From positions 1 through 12,786 of the forward strand of contig CARDPF010000064.1 in the NCBI GenBank assembly GCA_948960675.1: a DNA stretch of 12,786 bases, given 5' to 3'. Under the pieces are notes generated by a model. That model searched no databases, was not told the origin of the DNA, and worked only from the letters and a program-made list of their open reading frames with translations. Source of the DNA: an uncultured Eisenbergiella sp. GTDB lineage: Bacteria; Bacillota; Clostridia; Lachnospirales; Lachnospiraceae. Both the position numbers and the translations under genes were made by a program. How positions within the stretch are numbered: position 1 is the first letter of the stretch; each line of letters opens with the position of its first letter. Shown here piece by piece: positions 942-7,417 of the stretch.

Positions 942-1269
942 CTCATGTCATTCGTTTAGCCATGGGCTTTAGCGGCGTGCCGACAGGCTGGAGAGTGGGA
1001 ACGTGGCAGCAGGACAGTCCCTTACCGGGCAGACACCTCCTTACGCATGTCTGCATGTAAAACGGGGAATTTCACCAAAACGCTGCCCCATTCCAAGCGG
1101 CCCCAAAACGCGGAAAACTCGCTGCGCTCAAACAGTCCGCGTTTTCCGGCCGGAATGGAACGGCGTTTTGGGAAATTCCATCGTTTTGCATGCCACCATG
1201 CGTAAGGGGGTGTCTGCCCGGTAAGGGGCTGTCCTGCTGCCACGTTCCCACTCCCCAGCCTGTCGGCAC
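942..1269. repeat. Long-hairpin repeat LP1 (near-perfect ~293 bp palindrome)
   Basis: Bases 977-1269 fold into one long hairpin. The outer arms 977-1049 and 1197-1269 are complementary at 70 of 73 positions. The inner arms are less perfect, and the tip is a 10-bp stem (1105-1114 with 1136-1145) closing a 21-nt loop that contains CTCGCTGCGCTC. An inner module bounded by CTTACGCATG (1040-1049) and CATGCGTAAG (1197-1206) also occurs, in inverse orientation, in LP2 at 7106-7271. The left flank 942-976 resembles the outer end of LP2 (ATGTCATTCG... versus ATGTCATTTCG...), but the right side has no counterpart, so this copy seems trimmed on the right. It lies just after recX and before the ssrA promoter. 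Open frames inside it are by-products of the repeat. It could act as a bidirectional terminator or RNA-processing hairpin, or be a MITE-like relic; the sequence does not decide. Confidence 0.9.
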
Positions 1270-1346
1270 TTGGGGCGTGTATCCCTTTATCCACTGAGGG
1301 TAGTAACAATAGTGATACAAAAATTTGGAATAGTAAGAATTGCTGC

Positions 1347-1376
1347 TTGACAAATTCGTTTTTCCATGCATATAAT
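1347..1376 (+). promoter_or_regulatory. Sigma-A-type promoter of ssrA
   Basis: TTGACA (1347-1352) and TATAAT (1371-1376) are both perfect consensus hexamers, separated by 18 bases. Transcription should begin near 1383, leaving a leader of about 40 nt that is removed from the mature tmRNA 5' end at 1423. It is the strongest promoter visible in the window, as expected for an abundant stable RNA. Confidence 0.88.
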
Positions 1377-1422
1377 GGGGGCAGATAAACCGGGTGTGCA
1401 GCGTACCGGTTATACAGTGTTA

Positions 1423-1778
1423 GGGCTAGTCAAGGTTTCGACAGGGGTCTTGCAGCTGGAGAAGCTATCCGCAGGTGGTGCGTCAAACCACAAACCTAAA
1501 TATAAACGCTGAAGACAATTTAGCATACGCTGCCTAATGGCAGCTGTCTGGCTTAAGGCACCCACACTTTAAGACCCAGGCATCGACTATGTGGGAAACG
1601 ATGCAGGTTAAGCTTTGCCCCTGCAGGCGTATCATGAAGCTACCGGACCTTTCAGGGTGTCTGCTCCCTGACCGGCGAGGGAACGGGGCTGCATAAGGCA
1701 GTCCGAAATGAACAGACTATGATAGTAGAAGGACAGGGAATAGGCTTTTGGACACGGGTTCGACTCCCGTCTAGTCCA
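1423..1778 (+). ncRNA. ssrA: Transfer-messenger RNA (tmRNA)
   Basis: tmRNA rescues ribosomes stalled on mRNAs without a stop codon. It is charged with alanine, enters the A site with SmpB, then serves as template for a degradation tag. The ends form the tRNA-like part: GGGCTAG (1423-1429) pairs with CTAGTCC (1771-1777), including the G3-U pair that marks alanine identity, and the T arm reads GGACACGGGTTCGACTCCCGT. The 5' side has the conserved AAGGTTTCGACAGGG. The tag frame starts at GCT 1508-1510 and reads AEDNLAYAA before TAA 1535-1537, so the added peptide is probably A-AEDNLAYAA with the hydrophobic end read by ClpXP-type proteases. The resume codon is my choice by analogy with clostridial tags. 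The 3' CCA is not encoded (discriminator A 1778 is followed by TTG) and must be added enzymatically. The length of 356 nt is normal for a one-piece tmRNA. Confidence 0.96.
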
Positions 1779-1783
1779 TTGGG

Positions 1784-1827
1784 AAGGATGCTTGAAAATG
1801 GAAGTGTTTTGGGCATCCTTTTTTTAT
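1784..1827 (+). terminator. Intrinsic terminator of ssrA
   Basis: AAGGATGC (1784-1791) pairs with GCATCCTT (1813-1820) around a 21-nt loop, and the stem runs into a T-rich tract (1819-1827). It lies 5 bases past the tmRNA 3' end. Confidence 0.85.
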
Positions 1828-1967
1828 TTGCGGATTAAGAATGGTGATTGGAACCGTTTCAATCCGCTTTGCACCATATCAGGCAGGGCCAAAAATTTGG
1901 GCAGGAGGGCTTTGCCTTCATAAGGCATTGTTTTTGGGACAAACAAAAGAAAGGGGTATTGTAAATC

Positions 1968-2435
1968 ATGAAAACAATATGTGGATTGGACTGCGGCGAA
2001 TGCGGAATGCGGGAGCAGGGGCAGTGCAAGGGATGCGTGGAGACAGGGGGACAACCCTTTGGGGGAACCTGTATGATTGCCGTATGCTGCGGGGAAAAAG
2101 GCTGCATAAACTGCGGAAAATCCTTTGAAGCTCCCTGCAGAATCAAAGAGCAGCTCATTGCAGAGTTTAATGCGCTTGGCATTGGGGATATGGGGGAGGT
2201 TACAAATCTCTATGCACTTGTAGGTTCTTTTGTCAACCTTGCCTATACCCTGCCTGGCGGACAGTCGGTCCGTTTTTGGGAGGACGGCAGGGTATATCTG
2301 GGGAACCAACTCCCTAAAAAGAACAGTGAGAGATGCTATGGCCTTTTGGCGGACGAAAACTATCTTCTGGTATGCGAGTATGGCGAAGGTGGCTCTGACG
2401 CTGAAATTATCGTTTACAAAAAGCGCGGAAGATAG
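1968..2435 (+). CDS. DUF3795-type cysteine-rich protein
   Basis: This 155-residue cytoplasmic protein has no known function. The first ~65 residues carry the cysteine pattern I associate with DUF3795: CGLDCGEC near the start, then CKGC, CMIAVCCGEKGC, CINCGK and a final PCRIKEQ, giving about 12 cysteines likely to bind metal (zinc or an iron-sulfur cluster; this is inference). The last ~90 residues have almost no cysteine (one, in ERCYGLL) and look like a separate alpha/beta domain (segments such as NLAYTLPGG, SVRFWEDGRVYLG, YLLVCEYG). There is no signal peptide or membrane segment. The ATG at 1968 follows GAAAGGGG (1949-1956), an adequate but rather distant ribosome binding site. A short stem TGCCTT-CAT-AAGGCA (1913-1927) followed by TTGTTTTT sits upstream and could attenuate transcription. 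No clear promoter was found in 1828-1967. The gene stands alone after ssrA. A 207-residue frame on the opposite strand covering it is considered a shadow. Confidence 0.75.
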   Translation: MKTICGLDCGECGMREQGQCKGCVETGGQPFGGTCMIAVCCGEKGCINCGKSFEAPCRIKEQLIAEFNALGIGDMGEVTNLYALVGSFVNLAYTLPGGQSVRFWEDGRVYLGNQLPKKNSERCYGLLADENYLLVCEYGEGGSDAEIIVYKKRGR

Positions 2436-2557
2436 CAGCAAAATCATTTGTCTTTGTGCCCCGTCGCATGCGGGGCGGTTGTACCGTAACAGTTCACAAA
2501 AAAGTCTGGAGCGTTGCCACTTTATTCTTTTTTTAGAGTTAATTTTGTGCCAATTTC

Positions 2558-2585
2558 TTGCATTTTATCCATAATGCGATAAAAT
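2558..2585 (+). promoter_or_regulatory. Candidate promoter for the zinc-ribbon/DUF5685/J-domain cluster
   Basis: TTGCAT (2558-2563) and TAAAAT (2580-2585) are spaced by 16 bases in an AT-rich stretch. If used, transcription starts near 2592 and leaves an untranslated leader of about 310 nt before the gene at 2903. Hexamer matches are moderate, so this is a suggestion. Confidence 0.45.
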
Positions 2586-2644
2586 AAACGGTATATGTTA
2601 TTATTTACGGGGGCGCGTAGTGTAGAGCAATCCGTGGTATCATA

Positions 2645-2668
2645 GGGGGCAAAATACCGTTTGCCCCC
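2645..2668 (+). other. 9-bp hairpin with a competing partner upstream
   Basis: GGGGGCAAA (2645-2653) is perfectly complementary to TTTGCCCCC (2660-2668) around the loop ATACCG. The loop plus part of the stem (ATACCGTTT, 2654-2662) is also complementary to AAACGGTAT at 2586-2594, so two structures exclude one another. There is no T-tract, so it is not a plain terminator. Confidence 0.5.
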
Positions 2669-2730
2669 AACATCATGGCATTCAGTTAGCGTCTGCGGAC
2701 ATTAGCGTGCTCTATCACGCATATTCAGGC

Positions 2731-2845
2731 AAAGCACCTTGTCCAATTTTCCATCGGACTGCGTTGGCTTCCATCGACGATGCCGCCGGCATCGTCTGGA
2801 AATTTTAACGACGCAATGGTGTGCAGTCCCTGTTTGCAGGTGTTT
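2731..2845 (+). other. Three-tier imperfect hairpin in the leader
   Basis: Outer AAAGCACCT (2731-2739) pairs with AGGTGTTT (2838-2845, one G-T). Middle GACTGC (2757-2762) pairs with GCAGTC (2823-2828). The inner 9-bp stem GACGATGCC (2776-2784) pairs with GGCATCGTC (2788-2796) around GCC. It lies 57 bases before the start of the gene at 2903. I recognise no named RNA family here. Confidence 0.45.
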
Positions 2846-2902
2846 AAACTTCCATGGCAATGATGGCCCGGCAGGGTTTTCAGGTAAGGAGTCGGATACG
2901 GA

Positions 2903-3298
2903 ATGAAAGAAAAATTGATACGTTTTATGCAGGGGCGTTACGGCGCAGATTCATTCGGGAGGTTTTTGTCGGGGGCAGCGATGGTGCTGCTGCTTCTTTC
3001 GCTGCTTTTGCGGCAGCGCGCTTTTTATCCGCTGGCCCTGGCTGTGCTGGTATATTGCTATTTCCGTATTTTTTCTAAAAATATCGCAAAGCGGTATGCG
3101 GAAAACCAGAAATATTTGGCGGTGACAGCAGGGATGAGGCGCTTTTGGAAAAAGAAGAAATGGAAACTGGGGCAAAGGAAAACGCACCACATATACCGTT
3201 GTCCCGGCTGTCGGCAGAAGATCCGTATCCCCAGGGGAAAAGGAAGGATAGAGATCCGGTGTCCAAAATGTAACGGGAAATTTGTCAAAAACAGTTAG
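2903..3298 (+). CDS. Small membrane protein with C-terminal zinc ribbon
   Basis: This 131-residue protein has two adjoining hydrophobic segments (about residues 21-37 and 42-56, rich in Leu, Ala and Val), then a strongly basic stretch (residues ~78-93, with KKKKWK), then a zinc-ribbon: CPGC at 100-103 and CPKC at 120-123, with the linker RQKIRIPRGKGRIEIR. The pattern Cys-Pro-x-Cys twice, about 17 residues apart, is typical of rubredoxin-like zinc ribbons found at the ends of small clostridial membrane proteins. It is expected to sit in the membrane with the ribbon in the cytoplasm. The start at 2903 is supported by AAGGAG (2885-2890) with 12 bases spacing. An earlier in-frame alternative was not seen. 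The stop is 10 bases before the DUF5685 gene, so the two form an operon. Its function is unknown; binding of nucleic acid or a protein partner is possible but unproven. Confidence 0.8.
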   Translation: MKEKLIRFMQGRYGADSFGRFLSGAAMVLLLLSLLLRQRAFYPLALAVLVYCYFRIFSKNIAKRYAENQKYLAVTAGMRRFWKKKKWKLGQRKTHHIYRCPGCRQKIRIPRGKGRIEIRCPKCNGKFVKNS

Positions 3299-3308
3299 GG
3301 ATGAAGAG

Positions 3309-4154
3309 ATGTTTGGATATATTATTGGCAATAAGCAGGAAATGCGTTTTCGGGAGTTTGACTGTTACCAGTCCTATTACTGCGGCCTGTGTCAGGAACT
3401 AAAAAAGCGTTACGGCAGGAGCGGACAGATGACGTTGAGTTATGACATGACATTTGTGGCGATGCTGCTTTCCTCCCTCTATGAGCCGCAGGCAGAGATT
3501 GGCAGCTGCAAATGCATAGCCCATCCCTTTGAGGCGCATCCTACCAGACAGAATCCGTTTACGGAGTATGCCGCAGATATGAATGTTTTGTTTTCCTATT
3601 ATAAATGTCTGGACGATTGGGCGGATGAGAAAAAGCTGTCCGGTAGGGTGCAGGCGGCTCTTTTGAAAAAGAAGACGCAGCGGATTGCGGCAAAGCACCC
3701 ACACAAGGCGGAACGGATTTATACGCTTTTGGGGAATATCCGGCTGTATGAAAAGGCAGGGGAGAAAAACCTGGATTTGGCCAGCGGGTGTTTTGGGGAG
3801 ATTTTGTCGGAGATTTTTGCGTGGAGGCAGGATGAATGGGAGTCGCAGCTGCGCAAAATGGGCTTTTTTCTCGGAAAGTTTATCTATCTGATGGATGCCT
3901 ACGAAGACATGGAGAAGGACGAAAAGAGCGGCAACTATAACGTCTTTTTGCTGAAAAGGAAAGAATCGCAGGGCGCAGGGGATTTTGAAAAAGAAGTTTA
4001 TACGATATTAAGCATGATGATGGCGGAGTGCTGCAGGGCTTTTGAAAAGCTGCCGATCATAGAAAATGTGGAGATTCTTCGCAACATTCTCTATTCCGGT
4101 GTGTGGTGCCGGTATGAAATGGTGCAGAAGAAGAGGAAAAAAGAAAATGCGTGA
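3309..4154 (+). CDS. DUF5685 family protein (Asp-rich helical protein)
   Basis: This 281-residue protein of unknown function begins [20 protein letters not shown], the usual opening of DUF5685 proteins, which is why I start at ATG 3309 and not the in-frame ATG at 3282. AGGGA (3297-3301) is a suitable binding site. Conserved cysteines follow at 19, 25 and 28 (YYCGLC), with CKC near 67-69. The rest is predicted mainly helical with two acidic motifs: LDDWADE at 101-107 and [16 protein letters not shown] at 196-211. Two Asp-rich motifs about 95 residues apart in an all-helical protein recall the Mg-diphosphate sites of squalene/phytoene synthases; this is inference only. No signal peptide is seen; the protein is probably cytoplasmic. 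Its 3' end overlaps the J-domain gene by 8 bases, so translation is likely coupled and the products may act together. Confidence 0.8.
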
Positions 4155-4872
4155 CCCTTATCAGGTACTTGGCGTGTCAAAGGATGCGTCGGAGGAAGAA
4201 ATTAAAAAGGCGTACAGGAAGCTGAGCCGGATTTACCATCCGGACGCCAATGTCAATAACCCGAACCGCGAACAGGCGGAGGAAAAATTTAAACAGATCC
4301 AACAGGCTTACCAGCAGATCATGAAGGAAAAGGAACAGGGAATCTATGGGGGCAGCGACGGGTACGGCGGTCAGGAGGACGGCGGCTTCGATCCTTTTGA
4401 AAGCTTTTTTGGCGGCTTTGGATTTGGGGGATTCGGTGGACAGGGAGGCCGGCAGGGCAGCGCGGGAGAAGGGGATACGTATTCCGTGCACATGAAGGCG
4501 GCGATGAATTATATCAACAGCGGCCACTACCGGGAGGCGCTCCATGTGCTGGACGGCATCGGGGAGCGGACTGCCAGATGGTATTATTACAGTTCCATTG
4601 CCAATCAGGGGCTGGGCAGTAACGCACTGGCGCTGGAGCAGGCAAGGCAGGCGGCGGCCATGGAACCGCAGAATGCAGAATATGGCAGATGGGTGCAGCG
4701 CATGGAATCCGGCGGGAGCTGGTATGCGGGCAGGCAGATGCAGTATGGCGGCATGCCGGTTTCCAACGGCGGCGGTTGGTGCTGGAAGCTTTGTCTGGCC
4801 AATTTGATTTGTAACCTGTGCTGCGGCGGGGGCGGATTATGTTGCGGCGGTATGCCGTTTATATACCGTTAA
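4147..4872 (+). CDS. J-domain (DnaJ-like) protein with Cys-rich tail
   Basis: This 241-residue protein starts with a full J domain (residues ~3-64): DPYQVLGV, helix [17 protein letters not shown], the HPD signature at 31-33 that stimulates DnaK ATPase, and the [13 protein letters not shown] helix. A Gly/Phe-rich linker follows (about 78-107). Residues ~112-185 look like two or three TPR-type helical hairpins ([46 protein letters not shown]). The canonical DnaJ zinc finger (CxxCxGxG repeats) is absent, so it is not DnaJ itself but a class C type partner of DnaK. The last ~32 residues have seven cysteines (212, 216, 222, 225, 226, 232, 233) in a hydrophobic, Gly-rich setting, perhaps for membrane attachment or metal. 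ATG 4147 lies inside the end of the DUF5685 gene (8-base overlap); the longer frame upstream has no J-domain homology. Confidence 0.87.
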
Positions 4873-4926
4873 AAAACCGGGTCTTTTTGCGGCAGGGATT
4901 TCTGCTTGGGAAGGAGGGTGCGTCTT

Positions 4927-5436
4927 ATGCAGGCGATGGTGGTTTATTCCAGTGAAACCGGAAATACACAAAAGATAGCGGCTGCAATTTTTGCAGCCAT
5001 TCCGGGGGAATCGAAGGACATGCAGCGGGTGGATGAATACCGTGGGAAGGATGCGGATACCTTTTTTGTGGGGTTTCGTGTGGAGAAAGGCGACTGCGAC
5101 GTACAGACGGCCAATCTGCTGTCCAGCCTGCACGGCAAACGGATTGCCCTGTTTTGCGCCTGTAGGAACGGTAGGGACAGTGTGTACAATGACCGGATCA
5201 TCAGACAGGTCAAAAGCTGGATTGCACCGGGAAACATTTATATGGGGACGTTTTTGTGTCAGGGAAAAATGCCCATGCAGGTGCGCAAGCAGTATGAGGC
5301 ACAGCTTGCCCTCAAAAATGAGGAGGAACTTTACCGGCAGAGGATCAGGGATTTCGATCAGGCGCTGCTGCATCCGGATAAAACGGACCTGGAAGAAGCG
5401 GCGGCTTTTGCAAGGGAAGTGCTTGCCTGCGTTTAG
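4927..5436 (+). CDS. Flavodoxin-like protein
   Basis: This 169-residue protein shows the N-terminal flavodoxin pattern: a short beta strand (MVVYSS) followed by the FMN phosphate loop SSETGNTQKIA (residues 8-18), matching the T/S-x-T-G-N-T consensus. Later strands are visible as ADTFFVGFRV and RIALFCACR. FMN binding and electron transfer are therefore likely, but the partner is unknown. The C-terminal ~60 residues are helical and charged (VRKQYEAQL, EEELYRQRIRDFDQALL). The start at 4927 is chosen because AAGGAGG (4911-4917) lies 9 bases upstream; an earlier ATG at 4906 lies before that site and a later one at 4936 is too far inside. It follows the J-domain gene by 54 bases and may share its transcript. 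Such proteins occur in several clostridial pathways; nothing nearby shows which one applies here. Confidence 0.82.
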   Translation: MQAMVVYSSETGNTQKIAAAIFAAIPGESKDMQRVDEYRGKDADTFFVGFRVEKGDCDVQTANLLSSLHGKRIALFCACRNGRDSVYNDRIIRQVKSWIAPGNIYMGTFLCQGKMPMQVRKQYEAQLALKNEEELYRQRIRDFDQALLHPDKTDLEEAAAFAREVLACV

Positions 5437-5493
5437 GTGTGCCGACTGTAACGGTTCAGGCAGGTCTGCGCAATGAATGCACAAAAATGACCA

Positions 5494-5522
5494 TTGCATT
5501 TTCAGGCGATTTGTGGTATATA
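5494..5522 (+). promoter_or_regulatory. Candidate promoter of the MATE gene
   Basis: TTGCAT (5494-5499) and TATATA (5517-5522) are spaced by the ideal 17 bases. A start near 5529 would give a leader of about 105 nt. GCAATG (5470-5475) and CATTGC (5492-5497) form an inverted repeat overlapping the -35 box that could be an operator; this is weak. Confidence 0.6.
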
Positions 5523-5552
5523 CGTAACAGTTTGGACAGGTATGTGTTGCGT

Positions 5553-5600
5553 CCTGCCCGTTGCAGGTTTGGTGTCACATCAGCCTGCTGCAGGTTTTTT
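5553..5600 (+). promoter_or_regulatory. Possible attenuator in the MATE leader
   Basis: Two small hairpins share the same arms: CCTGC/GCAGG at 5553-5567, and CCTGC/GCAGG at 5584-5594. The second is followed by six T (5595-5600), like an intrinsic terminator. The first CCTGC could also pair with the second GCAGG, so alternative folds are possible. The stems are short, and a loop of one base forces the second to 4 bp in practice. Confidence 0.3.
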
Positions 5601-5632
5601 GGCTGCGCAGATCGTGCGAAAGGGGATTTTTT

Positions 5633-6988
5633 ATGGTCAGGGATATGACACAGGGAAGTCCGAGAAAGCTGATTCTCGGATTTGCAGTTCCCCTGCTTTT
5701 GGGGAATTTATTTCAGCAGTTTTACAGTCTGGTGGATACGGTTATTGTGGGAAAATTTTTGGGAGTGGGCAAACTTGCGGCAGTGGGGGCCACCGGTTCC
5801 ATCAATTTTTTGATTATCGGGTTTTGTATGGGGATATGCAGCGGTTTTGCAATTCCCATTGCGCAGAAATTCGGGGCGAAGGATGAAAGTTCCCTGCGGC
5901 GTTTTGTGGCTAACAGCGCATGGCTGGGCGGCATGTTTGCGGTGGTGTTGACGGTGCTGACGGTGGCCTTGTGCCGGCACATTCTGACCTGGATGAAAAC
6001 CCCTGCGGACATTATTGAGGATTCCTATGTATACATAGTGATTATCTTTGCGGGGATACCGGTCACCATCCTATATAATCTTACGTCCGCGATCATCCGT
6101 TCCATGGGGGATTCCAAGACACCGGTATACTTTTTGACGCTGTCGGCGGTGCTCAATATTGGACTGGATTTGTTTTGCATCGTCGTGCTGCATATGGGAG
6201 TGGCAGGGGCGGCGGTTGCCACCGTCGTATCTCAGGCAATTGCAGGGGCAGCCTGTCTGGTGTATATGATTCGAAAGTATGAAATTCTGCGGATGCAGCC
6301 AGGGGAAGCGAAAGTACAGCCCGGTCTTTTGCTGCGGCTGACGGTCATGGGGGTTCCCATGGGATTACAGTATTCGGTAACGGCCATCGGCAGCGTCGTT
6401 TTGCAGAGTGCGGTGAATACACTGGGAAGCGTGGCGGTAGCCTCCGTGACGGCTGCGGGAAAAATCAGCATGATTTTTTGCTGCCCCTTTGATGCGCTGG
6501 GCGCTACCATGGCGACTTTTGCCGGGCAGAACATGGGGGCAGGGAAGCCTAAACGGATTCGTCAGGGCTTAAAAGAGGCAAACATCATGGGAAGCGTTTA
6601 TGCCGTTCTTGCTTTTGCGGTGCTGTTTTTTGCGGGAAAATATGTGGCCCTGCTTTTTGTGGATGCAAAAGAGACGGTGATTTTGGACAATGTAGCGCTT
6701 ATGCTTACGGTGAACGGGGCCTTTTATATTCCGCTTGCTTTTGTGAATATCGTGCGGTTTTTAATTCAGGGCGTCGGGTTTTCCGGGCTTGCGATTTTCT
6801 CCGGTGCCTGCGAAATGGTAGCGCGGGCGCTGGCAGGTTTTTTGCTTGTACCGATGTTCGGTTTTTTGGCGGTATGTTTTGCCAACCCGCTGGCATGGAT
6901 TGCGGCGGATCTGTTTTTGTTTCCGGCTTATTTCAAAGTTATGCGCCGTGTGGAGGAGTATCTGGACGGGAAACGGCCGCATCTATAA
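5633..6988 (+). CDS. MATE family multidrug/metabolite exporter
   Basis: This 451-residue integral membrane protein is a multidrug and toxic compound extrusion (MATE) transporter: a cation-coupled exporter of organic cations or metabolites across the cytoplasmic membrane, with about 12 membrane helices in two homologous halves. The first half opens with PRKLILGFAVPLLLGNLFQQFYSLVDTVIVGKFLG, a standard MATE start (PLLLGNLFQQFY, DTVIVGKFLG), then GSINFLIIGFCMGICSGFAIPIAQ. The second half has VPMGLQYSVTAIGSVVLQ and ATFAGQNMGAGKPKRI, the family's repeated G-Q-x-x-G-A-x motif. ATG 5633 is preferred because AAGGGG (5619-5624) lies 8 bases upstream and the protein then begins at the usual point; a longer frame to 5561 adds residues unlike the family. 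The substrate cannot be read from sequence. It is a single gene with its own promoter; LP2 begins 31 bases after the stop. Confidence 0.92.
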   Translation: MVRDMTQGSPRKLILGFAVPLLLGNLFQQFYSLVDTVIVGKFLGVGKLAAVGATGSINFLIIGFCMGICSGFAIPIAQKFGAKDESSLRRFVANSAWLGGMFAVVLTVLTVALCRHILTWMKTPADIIEDSYVYIVIIFAGIPVTILYNLTSAIIRSMGDSKTPVYFLTLSAVLNIGLDLFCIVVLHMGVAGAAVATVVSQAIAGAACLVYMIRKYEILRMQPGEAKVQPGLLLRLTVMGVPMGLQYSVTAIGSVVLQSAVNTLGSVAVASVTAAGKISMIFCCPFDALGATMATFAGQNMGAGKPKRIRQGLKEANIMGSVYAVLAFAVLFFAGKYVALLFVDAKETVILDNVALMLTVNGAFYIPLAFVNIVRFLIQGVGFSGLAIFSGACEMVARALAGFLLVPMFGFLAVCFANPLAWIAADLFLFPAYFKVMRRVEEYLDGKRPHL

Positions 6989-7007
6989 GGAAAAAATTCT
7001 GCGTGAC

Positions 7008-7018
7008 GGTTCAGCCTT
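7008..7018 (+). repeat. Left 11-bp direct repeat flanking LP2
   Basis: GGTTCAGCCTT here recurs exactly at 7351-7361, on the other side of the 331 bp palindrome. One base (C 7019) separates it from the palindrome. This is the expected look of a target-site duplication. Confidence 0.65.
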
Positions 7019-7019
7019 C

Positions 7020-7350
7020 AATGTCATTTCGTTTCGCCTGGGCGCAGGCGGTACGTCGGCAGGCGCGGCAGCGGCAGGACCGCCCCCTTACGGTACGGGC
7101 AGTTCCTTACGCATGGTGGCATGCAAACGGTGGAATTTCCCAAAACGCTGTTTTAGTCCAGCCGGAAAACGCGGACTGTTTGAGCGCAGCGAGTTTTACG
7201 CGTTTTCCGGCTGTTTGGATTAGAACGGCATTTTGGTGAAATTCCCCGTTTTGCATGTATACATGCGTAAGAACTGCCCGCACCGTAAGGGGGTGGTTCT
7301 GCCGCGTCTGCCGACGTACCGCCTGCGCCCAGGCGAAACGAAATGACATT
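7020..7350. mobile_element. Long-hairpin repeat LP2 (331 bp palindrome, MITE-like)
   Basis: The outer arms 7020-7062 and 7308-7350 are perfectly complementary over 43 bases, starting with AATGTCATTTCG. The inner arms continue with small gaps to a 13-bp tip stem (7161-7173 with 7199-7211) and a 25-nt loop containing GAGCGCAGCGAG. An inner module bounded by CTTACGCATG (7106-7115) and CATGCGTAAG (7262-7271) is shared with LP1 in inverse orientation, and 37 bases at the tip (7161-7197) are identical to the complement of 1114-1150. Flanking 11-bp direct repeats suggest insertion. It encodes no plausible protein, so if mobile it would depend on a transposase elsewhere. It follows the MATE gene and precedes the two-component genes, where it may also end or stabilise the MATE transcript. 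Confidence 0.7.
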
Positions 7351-7361
7351 GGTTCAGCCTT
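7351..7361 (+). repeat. Right 11-bp direct repeat flanking LP2
   Basis: An exact copy of GGTTCAGCCTT at 7008-7018, directly abutting the end of the palindrome. Confidence 0.65.
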
Positions 7362-7417
7362 GCCTTAAACTGTTGCAAAAAATCCGAAACGGTCACATTT
7401 TTTACATATTTATCCGC

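Follow-up and report, generated by a model that had tools for sequence, protein, structure and literature searches.

A likely mobile family of palindromic elements in bacterial genomes with a conserved loop and arms that differ between copies

The window analyzed here, a 12,786-nt stretch of contig CARDPF010000064.1 (assembly GCA_948960675.1) from an uncultured Eisenbergiella sp. of the Lachnospiraceae, contains two long palindromes: LP1, beside recX and the transfer-messenger RNA (tmRNA), and LP2, beside a MatE-family and a response-regulator gene. Both are near-perfect hairpins in intergenic DNA, with fold energies (RNA parameters) of -246 and -272 kcal/mol, respectively. A preliminary description of the window had proposed that they are homologous, with arms unlike between the two copies yet pairing within each, and the alignments confirm this. 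The outer arms of LP1 (977-1039 and 1207-1269) match at 60/63 positions and those of LP2 (7019-7104 and 7272-7351) at 77/86 alignment columns, 6 of them gaps, with a 98% match between 7019-7071 and 7299-7351, whereas LP1 and LP2 align with each other at only 47/92 columns in the left outer arms (35 gap columns) and 43/87 in the right (31 gap columns). Their centers are homologous in inverted orientation, with the inner modules identical at 146/168 columns when inverted vs 128/177 when compared directly. We interpret both, with a probability of about 0.6, as copies of a non-autonomous palindromic mobile element resembling a miniature inverted-repeat transposable element (MITE), in which the arms are mainly copied from each other while the apical loop and an internal loop are under selection.

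The part shared by the whole family is the apical loop, AACTCGCTNCGCTCARACA. Its core was detected with at most one mismatch in 37/397 genomes drawn from the family of genome G314, to which the window's nearest relatives belong, with 1 to 52 matches each; the matches listed for these 37 genomes sum to 183, vs 15 for a mirrored control that is not fully independent, as the middle of the core reads nearly the same backwards. In the genus of G700 (13 genomes searched), 6 genomes hold 11 exact cores, and the mirrored control gave none. The RecX of G700 gave the highest score against the window RecX (57% identical, as is the RecX of G394), and the genomes appear to belong to the Lachnospiraceae/Clostridia, a placing that rests in part on such RecX matches. 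When the LP1 inner module was used as a query against 391 genomes drawn from the G001 class, 26 gave matches, many spanning just ~20-30 nt around the loop, and in 15 of these genomes the core lies in a hairpin scoring at least 12 at the fetched locus. Overall, the fetched loci hold 155 distinct core occurrences (at most 2 mismatches), with hairpin arms scoring at least 12 in 146 and not in 9, compared to a median score of 2.4 at 186 random positions, the top three of which (30, 61, and 81) probably fall on hairpins. Total hairpin length has a median of 259 nt and a range of 107-445 nt (135 hairpins scoring at least 20 with room on both sides). The search for further copies that the preliminary description had suggested thus revealed many, with outer arms differing between copies and pairing within them. 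Neither of the two contrary outcomes named there was seen: independent decay of the arms is absent from these copies, and LP1 and LP2 are not chance composites, their center being common to each other and to hairpins of other genomes.

In viral contigs, the core with its following G occurs in 14 stretches, which may be host flanks of proviruses; 13 of them are hairpins scoring 10-25, and one has no hairpin. A 33-nt exact core gave no match in viral contigs, nor did the LP1 inner module in plasmids and phages, or LP2 with its flanks in the genus of G394 (one genome). The pattern CTTACGCATGNNNNCATGNAAA was also found in 13 genome-contig stretches and 1 viral-contig stretch; the 13 come from scattered groups and were taken as chance, and the three inspected of all 14 (L002, L011, and L001) contain no such hairpin. 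Very long hairpins that lack the core also lie at L191 1041-1067, L192 2049-2075, L201 1880-1888, and L120 2162-2166 (genomes G406 and G721), and two core hairpins of G227 sit inside runs of short tandem repeats (L024 1300-2100). When hairpins were sought irrespective of their loop, 50 were recovered in addition to the 115 already known, and many of the 50 are repeats or off-center views of known hairpins.

Conservation is concentrated in the center of these elements. Among the 19 core positions, 15 show no variation across 119 hairpins, although the search patterns partly imposed this by leaving position 9 open and tolerating few mismatches at the other positions. Position 9 is T in 73, G in 35, A in 10, and C in 1 of these hairpins, position 16 is A in 102 and G in 17, and positions 10 and 15 each vary once. 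Three loop variants keep the flanking loop letters around a longer short stem within the loop, which is complementary in L117 and L166 and includes a G.T pair in L163 (pairing by eye). An internal loop with CTAAA on the left and TTAAG on the right is present in 50/136 hairpins and never in swapped arrangement (0/136), while control motif pairs gave 14 and 1; this feature is degenerate in LP1 and LP2. Because the asymmetry is kept in distant genomes, and unrestricted copying between arms would erase it, the loop and internal loop must be shielded from copying, presumably by selection.

Mobility is best documented in genome G754, whose copies start with GTWACAGTTCA and finish with its complement, many with 8-nt direct repeats outside. 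This terminal motif occurs 116 times in G754, vs once for the mirrored motif, and 48 exact cores are found there vs 6 in G435, a sister species of the same genus. In a comparison of G435 with 20 kb of G754 sequence that contains four cores, one element was cleanly absent from G435, and its flanks there overlap by 8 bases, as target duplication predicts. Similarly, a second hairpin at a G737 locus is absent from the same place in G740. Direct repeats scoring at least 5.5 flank 24/133 hairpins vs 1.0% of shuffled flanks, and those scoring at least 7 flank 16/133 vs 0.5%; they measure 8 bp at many G754/G435 copies, 11 bp at LP2, and 14 bp at L197, and none was found for most hairpins elsewhere. 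Given these direct repeats, terminal repeats, copy number, and empty site, the G754 elements are very likely mobile, gene-less, and palindromic. In the loci read, the terminal motif encloses core hairpins of ~287-289 nt, a core-less element of ~151 nt, and short forms of 35-91 nt, among which L277-L280 look like hairpins minus their center. The core-less second element with the same ends is seen several times in G754 (L245 1501-1651, L249, L250, L281, L282, and L290).

Hairpins of other genomes have asymmetric ends or no ends in common. The G406 flanks beyond the hairpins are alike and asymmetric, with GGGGCC on the left and ~TRCTTTGGTGYTGGC on the right (L119, L191, L192, L200, and L203), as if an element or target reaches past the palindrome. 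For LP1 and LP2, the terminal repeats are limited to a partial end in the former and, around the latter, a degenerate outer repeat (Table 1). LP2 is likely mobile, judging by its flanking direct repeat, and the mobility of LP1 would follow from homology. LP1 itself seems end-truncated, as the sequence at 944-961 resembles the LP2 terminus at 7019-7038 and has no evident partner on the right side of LP1.

Table 1 Coordinates of the palindromes and associated features in the window.
Feature	Position	Strand	Remarks
LP1 hairpin	977-1269	.	Intergenic, between recX (322-933) and tmRNA (1423-1778)
LP1 inner module	1040-1206	+	Homologous, inverted, to the LP2 inner module
LP1 apical loop core AACTCGCTGCGCTCAAACA	1116-1134	+	
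LP1 left flank CATGTCATTCGTTTAGCC	944-961	+	Resembles LP2 terminus CAATGTCATTTCGTTTCGCC; likely remnant end, as read from sequence
LP2 hairpin	7019-7351	.	Intergenic, between a MatE-family gene and a response-regulator gene
LP2 inner module	7105-7271	-	Inverted relative to LP1
LP2 apical loop core AACTCGCTGCGCTCAAACA	7177-7195	-	Core on minus strand
11-bp direct repeat GGTTCAGCCTT, left copy	7008-7018	+	Probable target-site duplication of LP2
11-bp direct repeat GGTTCAGCCTT, right copy	7351-7361	+	
GTGACGGTTCA	7003-7013	+	1 mismatch vs the terminal motif of G754 elements
TTAAACTGTTGC	7365-7376		Forms, with GTGACGGTTCA, a degenerate outer inverted repeat around LP2; partner read from sequence

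Elsewhere in the window, the terminal motif of the G754 elements (GTAACRGTTCA, 1 mismatch allowed) occurs at 2486-2496, 5448-5458, and 7003-7013, i.e., 3 times vs 0.21 expected; two of these sites are far from the hairpins and are perhaps lone ends of degraded elements. Open frames at 1022-1309 (-) and 6846-7223 (+) cross the hairpins and encode GLFERSEF from the loop core, and frames containing this peptide may get annotated as spurious proteins. A scan of the window against Rfam 15 returned the tmRNA as sole match, with no known structured RNA at the hairpins.

We next consider how the arms can differ between copies and still pair within them. In an alignment of LP1, LP2 (turned), and L099 and L107, their relatives from another genome, both sides had changed in 37/113 pairs, compared to 15.6 ± 2.8 pairs in shuffles (0/500 reaching 37) and 4-9 pairs when partners were moved by 1-3 columns, although this alignment includes four sequences only and its structure was derived from these same sequences. 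In a larger set of 28 aligned G754 copies, pairing within copies reaches 93% in the outer zone and 96% in the inner zone, with identity between copies at 0.63 and 0.91, respectively, and 67/119 pairs changed on both sides vs 45.5 ± 2.8 (highest 53) in 200 shuffles and 20-28 in the slide control. Across seven copy groups, the outer arms are 0.75-0.91 paired within copies and 0.52-0.76 alike between copies, the two values being nearly equal in the G680 group (0.78 within and 0.76 between). For the inner 60 nt, likeness between copies exceeds pairing within copies in 6/7 groups, with the G740 group (three genomes) reversed (0.72 and 0.78).

The tempo of these changes was read from 30 G754 copies, sorted into identity bands, in which the same copies recur across band comparisons so that the paralog comparisons are not independent. 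Counts of two-sided Watson-Crick changes, one-sided changes, and base pairs were 40/93/2391 at ≥95% identity, 99/121/2651 at 92-95%, 240/144/2905 at 88-92%, 828/336/5902 at 80-88%, 6583/1640/30388 at 70-80%, and 506/90/1640 at 60-70%. Two-sided changes thus rise from 1.7% to 31% with divergence while one-sided mismatches hold at ~4-6%. We estimate that independent change would yield ~1 two-sided Watson-Crick change in the ≥95% band, where 40 were counted. Adjacent two-sided changes number 60 vs 24.3 if evenly scattered, an excess partly due to their concentration in the outer zone. Both values are difficult for the principal alternative, in which the hairpin structure itself is selected, as a cruciform, folded single-stranded DNA, or RNA with a transposition or host role, and paired changes are ordinary compensatory substitutions. 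We regard this alternative as unlikely on balance, but as a credible competitor.

Orthologous hairpins offer evidence in both directions. For L102/L108, 12 of 122 pairs (9.8%) show two-sided Watson-Crick changes, 1 another two-sided change, and 8 one-sided changes (12 and 5 of 122 in an RNA-fold-based count, with 0/52 flank columns changed), and the two-sided rate is close to the 12% (11/92) observed at four-fold sites, which weighs against the structural alternative. Conversely, L119/L120 arms show 3 two-sided and 3 one-sided changes in 97 pairs while 33/132 four-fold sites differ (counted in a frame taken as gene, with frames giving 0/78 and 3/31 dropped as antisense or spurious), i.e., these arms evolve far slower than neutral, in line with a selected structure. 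Hence, of the two usable ortholog pairs, one fits copying at a roughly neutral rate and the other is strongly constrained, and selection may also act on the arms or the whole structure, since this second pair changes so slowly. A third pair, L022/L023, has only 38 common pairs, with 3 two-sided Watson-Crick, 2 other two-sided, and 2 one-sided changes, and 156/291 four-fold sites differing. None of the fetched loci provided a G754/G435 ortholog pair with both elements in place.

The types of mismatch are also informative, as a folded RNA tolerates G.U pairs, which appear as A.C when the change is read on the opposite strand. Across all arms, isolated mismatches include 149 G.T and 180 A.C. Within 40 nt of the loop, these are 43 and 76, between 40 and 80 nt 33 and 30, the only tally with more G.T, and beyond 80 nt, in the outer arms, 73 and 75, a lack of mismatch-type bias that weighs against the structural alternative. 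New mismatches between nearest relatives are 24 G.T and 42 A.C, and distinct mismatch events in seven groups are 69 and 94 (p 0.06). Since G.T shows no clear excess, nothing here indicates that the core (loop-bearing) strand yields a functional RNA. The A.C lean near the loop and among new mismatches, if real, would suggest that the complementary strand folds and that one folded strand is under selection, and it favors the structural alternative along with the conserved, asymmetric loop and internal loop and the complementary short stem retained in loop variants L117 and L166. A scan of five related loci against Rfam 15 (E up to 1) returned three matches, all below gathering score: two to microRNA models of plant or animal type, on hairpins, and one to a long non-coding RNA model elsewhere.

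Taken together, arm-to-arm copying is favored because two-sided changes appear early and grow with divergence, because arms changed in place at an orthologous site, and because no wobble bias is seen. The preliminary description had left selection on the structure and copying of one arm onto the other, by template switching or hairpin repair, as two options; given two-sided changes already present at >95% identity and the lack of a G.T excess, the data lean toward copying for the arms. For the apical loop and one of the internal loops, they lean toward selection.

A different origin of the arms would be that they are pre-existing host hairpins, e.g., terminators, and that a smaller element consisting of the conserved center inserted in their loops. 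Such insertions would make arms unlike between copies and self-complementary within each, and the G468 arms, which are unrelated between copies outside the shared center, as well as the position of LP2 inside a degenerate inverted repeat, are consistent with this. So is the genomic context (134 hairpins, 5 with incomplete neighbors; gene models taken as longest open frames), where the median distance is 29.5 nt to a gene 3′ end and 100 nt to a 5′ end. Neighboring genes are co-directional at 88 (51 + 37), convergent at 22, and divergent at 19 of these hairpins, and 13/258 hairpin sides overlap a frame by >30 nt. However, T-rich tails of intrinsic terminators (at least 8 T in 12, either side) accompany just 4/136 hairpins and LP1 has no terminator-like site, the variable arms of G754 lie within the terminal and direct repeats, and the clean empty site in G435 leaves no hairpin behind. 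We therefore deem insertion into host hairpins very improbable.

Several observations weigh against a mobile element with copied arms. LP1 has no detected flanking direct repeat, and 22 of the 24 repeat-flanked hairpins come from G754/G435, the remaining two being L197 and LP2. In the comparison of G754 with G435, a second element is absent with ~26 nt of unlike sequence in G435, and the other two adjoin further differences that give no clear reading. No transposase with matching ends was found among the IS66 genes examined, in fetched loci that extend ~1.5 kb past the match and may miss an end. To these add the slow L119/L120 arms, the non-independence of the paralog comparisons, and the A.C lean near the loop and among new mismatches. 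As to candidate mobilizers, IS66 genes are present in 4/5 genomes with no matching ends seen, in loci that may be too short, and IS66 was set aside. No facing pair of GTWACAGTTCA motifs 1-3.5 kb apart was seen by eye among 100 of the 116 listed motif places, and no recurrent neighboring transposase was found among the loci fetched at that stage. A dedicated neighbor gene was rejected as well, the commonest cluster of neighboring frames (9 loci) looking like an ordinary ABC ATPase.

In the mechanism that we propose, each element combines three zones, namely ends specific to the lineage, long arms whose sequence is free, and a conserved center that holds asymmetric apical and internal loops. A transposase would insert the element in trans. 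Template switching during DNA synthesis in the hairpin (quasipalindrome correction) would transfer a mutation from one arm to its partner, changes would arrive paired, and arms could drift between copies without losing their match. Selection would guard the loop and internal loop, which are probably read in a folded DNA strand by a protein or the mobility machinery. Template switching has been put forward as a process that creates and maintains hairpins (PMC8794818; PMC7202029; PMC8604942).

A bolder version, which we consider speculative and rather doubtful, is a selfish Clostridia-wide DNA hairpin identified by its loop and internal loop, with a dedicated factor reading the folded-DNA loop, perhaps via a GCGNAGC mini-hairpin on the complementary strand, arms rewritten from each other, and lineages that acquired differing ends and thereby differing transposases. 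GCGNAGC, an exceptionally stable DNA mini-hairpin whose middle base is free, is contained in the complement of the core, where core position 9 would be that base, although the search patterns placed no constraint on this position. This mini-hairpin is a lead, as folds with DNA parameters gave it no support for canonical loops (0 kcal/mol), and the two longer loop variants gave weak folds that 22/200 and 15/200 shuffles equaled. If this version were true, heredity would be carried by shape and loop, not by arm sequence.

Very long palindromes are generally unstable, and this family consists of very long palindromes across many bacterial genomes despite the expected instability. With ~48 copies and several arm lineages in G754, and a sparsely populated sister genome, it provides a natural record of joint change in inverted-repeat arms, in which compensatory substitution and template switching become directly testable against each other. 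This matters because such covariation is usually taken to prove that an RNA is functional. Caution is also called for in annotation, as these hairpins yield covariation, sub-threshold matches to microRNA models, and small open frames.

MITEs are short, gene-less elements with terminal inverted repeats and flanking direct repeats, found in many copies per genome in intergenic regions. The family described here is likewise short, devoid of genes, and intergenic, with terminal inverted repeats, outside direct repeats, and many copies in one genome. Unlike in MITEs, it is the center (loop), not the ends, that is common to distant genomes, almost the whole element is one palindrome whose arms between ends and center are unlike across copies, and a source transposon was not found in the fetched loci, where IS66 was the transposase family examined. 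Integron attC sites carry the core sites RYYYAAC and GTTRRRY; at the hairpin foot, RYYYAAC is found in 0/135 and GTTRRRY in 6/135 (random 0.7%), with its partner missing. Repetitive extragenic palindromic (REP) sequences and REP doublets forming hairpins (REPINs), mobilized by RAYT, are also palindromic and extragenic, and have been proposed to move via a single-stranded DNA hairpin (PMC3116915). However, REPs measure 20-40 bp (PMC3733652), and many carry GTAG or CGTC tags, while the present hairpins have the far greater median length given above and no clear tag excess (GTAG 11/135, random 5.8%; CGTC 10/135, random 8.7%). Quasipalindrome correction shares with this family the restored pairing through paired changes, a copying event restoring pairing and giving multi-base paired changes (PMC8794818), but that paper describes it for RNA genes, and here it would act on long arms in a mobile, many-copy family. 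The preliminary description knew of no named repeat family with these features, and no description of this hairpin family was recognized among the open-access papers listed, judged by titles and abstract starts, with closed journals, preprints, and supplements outside the scope. Overall, the family behaves as MITEs do, except that its center is shared and its arms are private.

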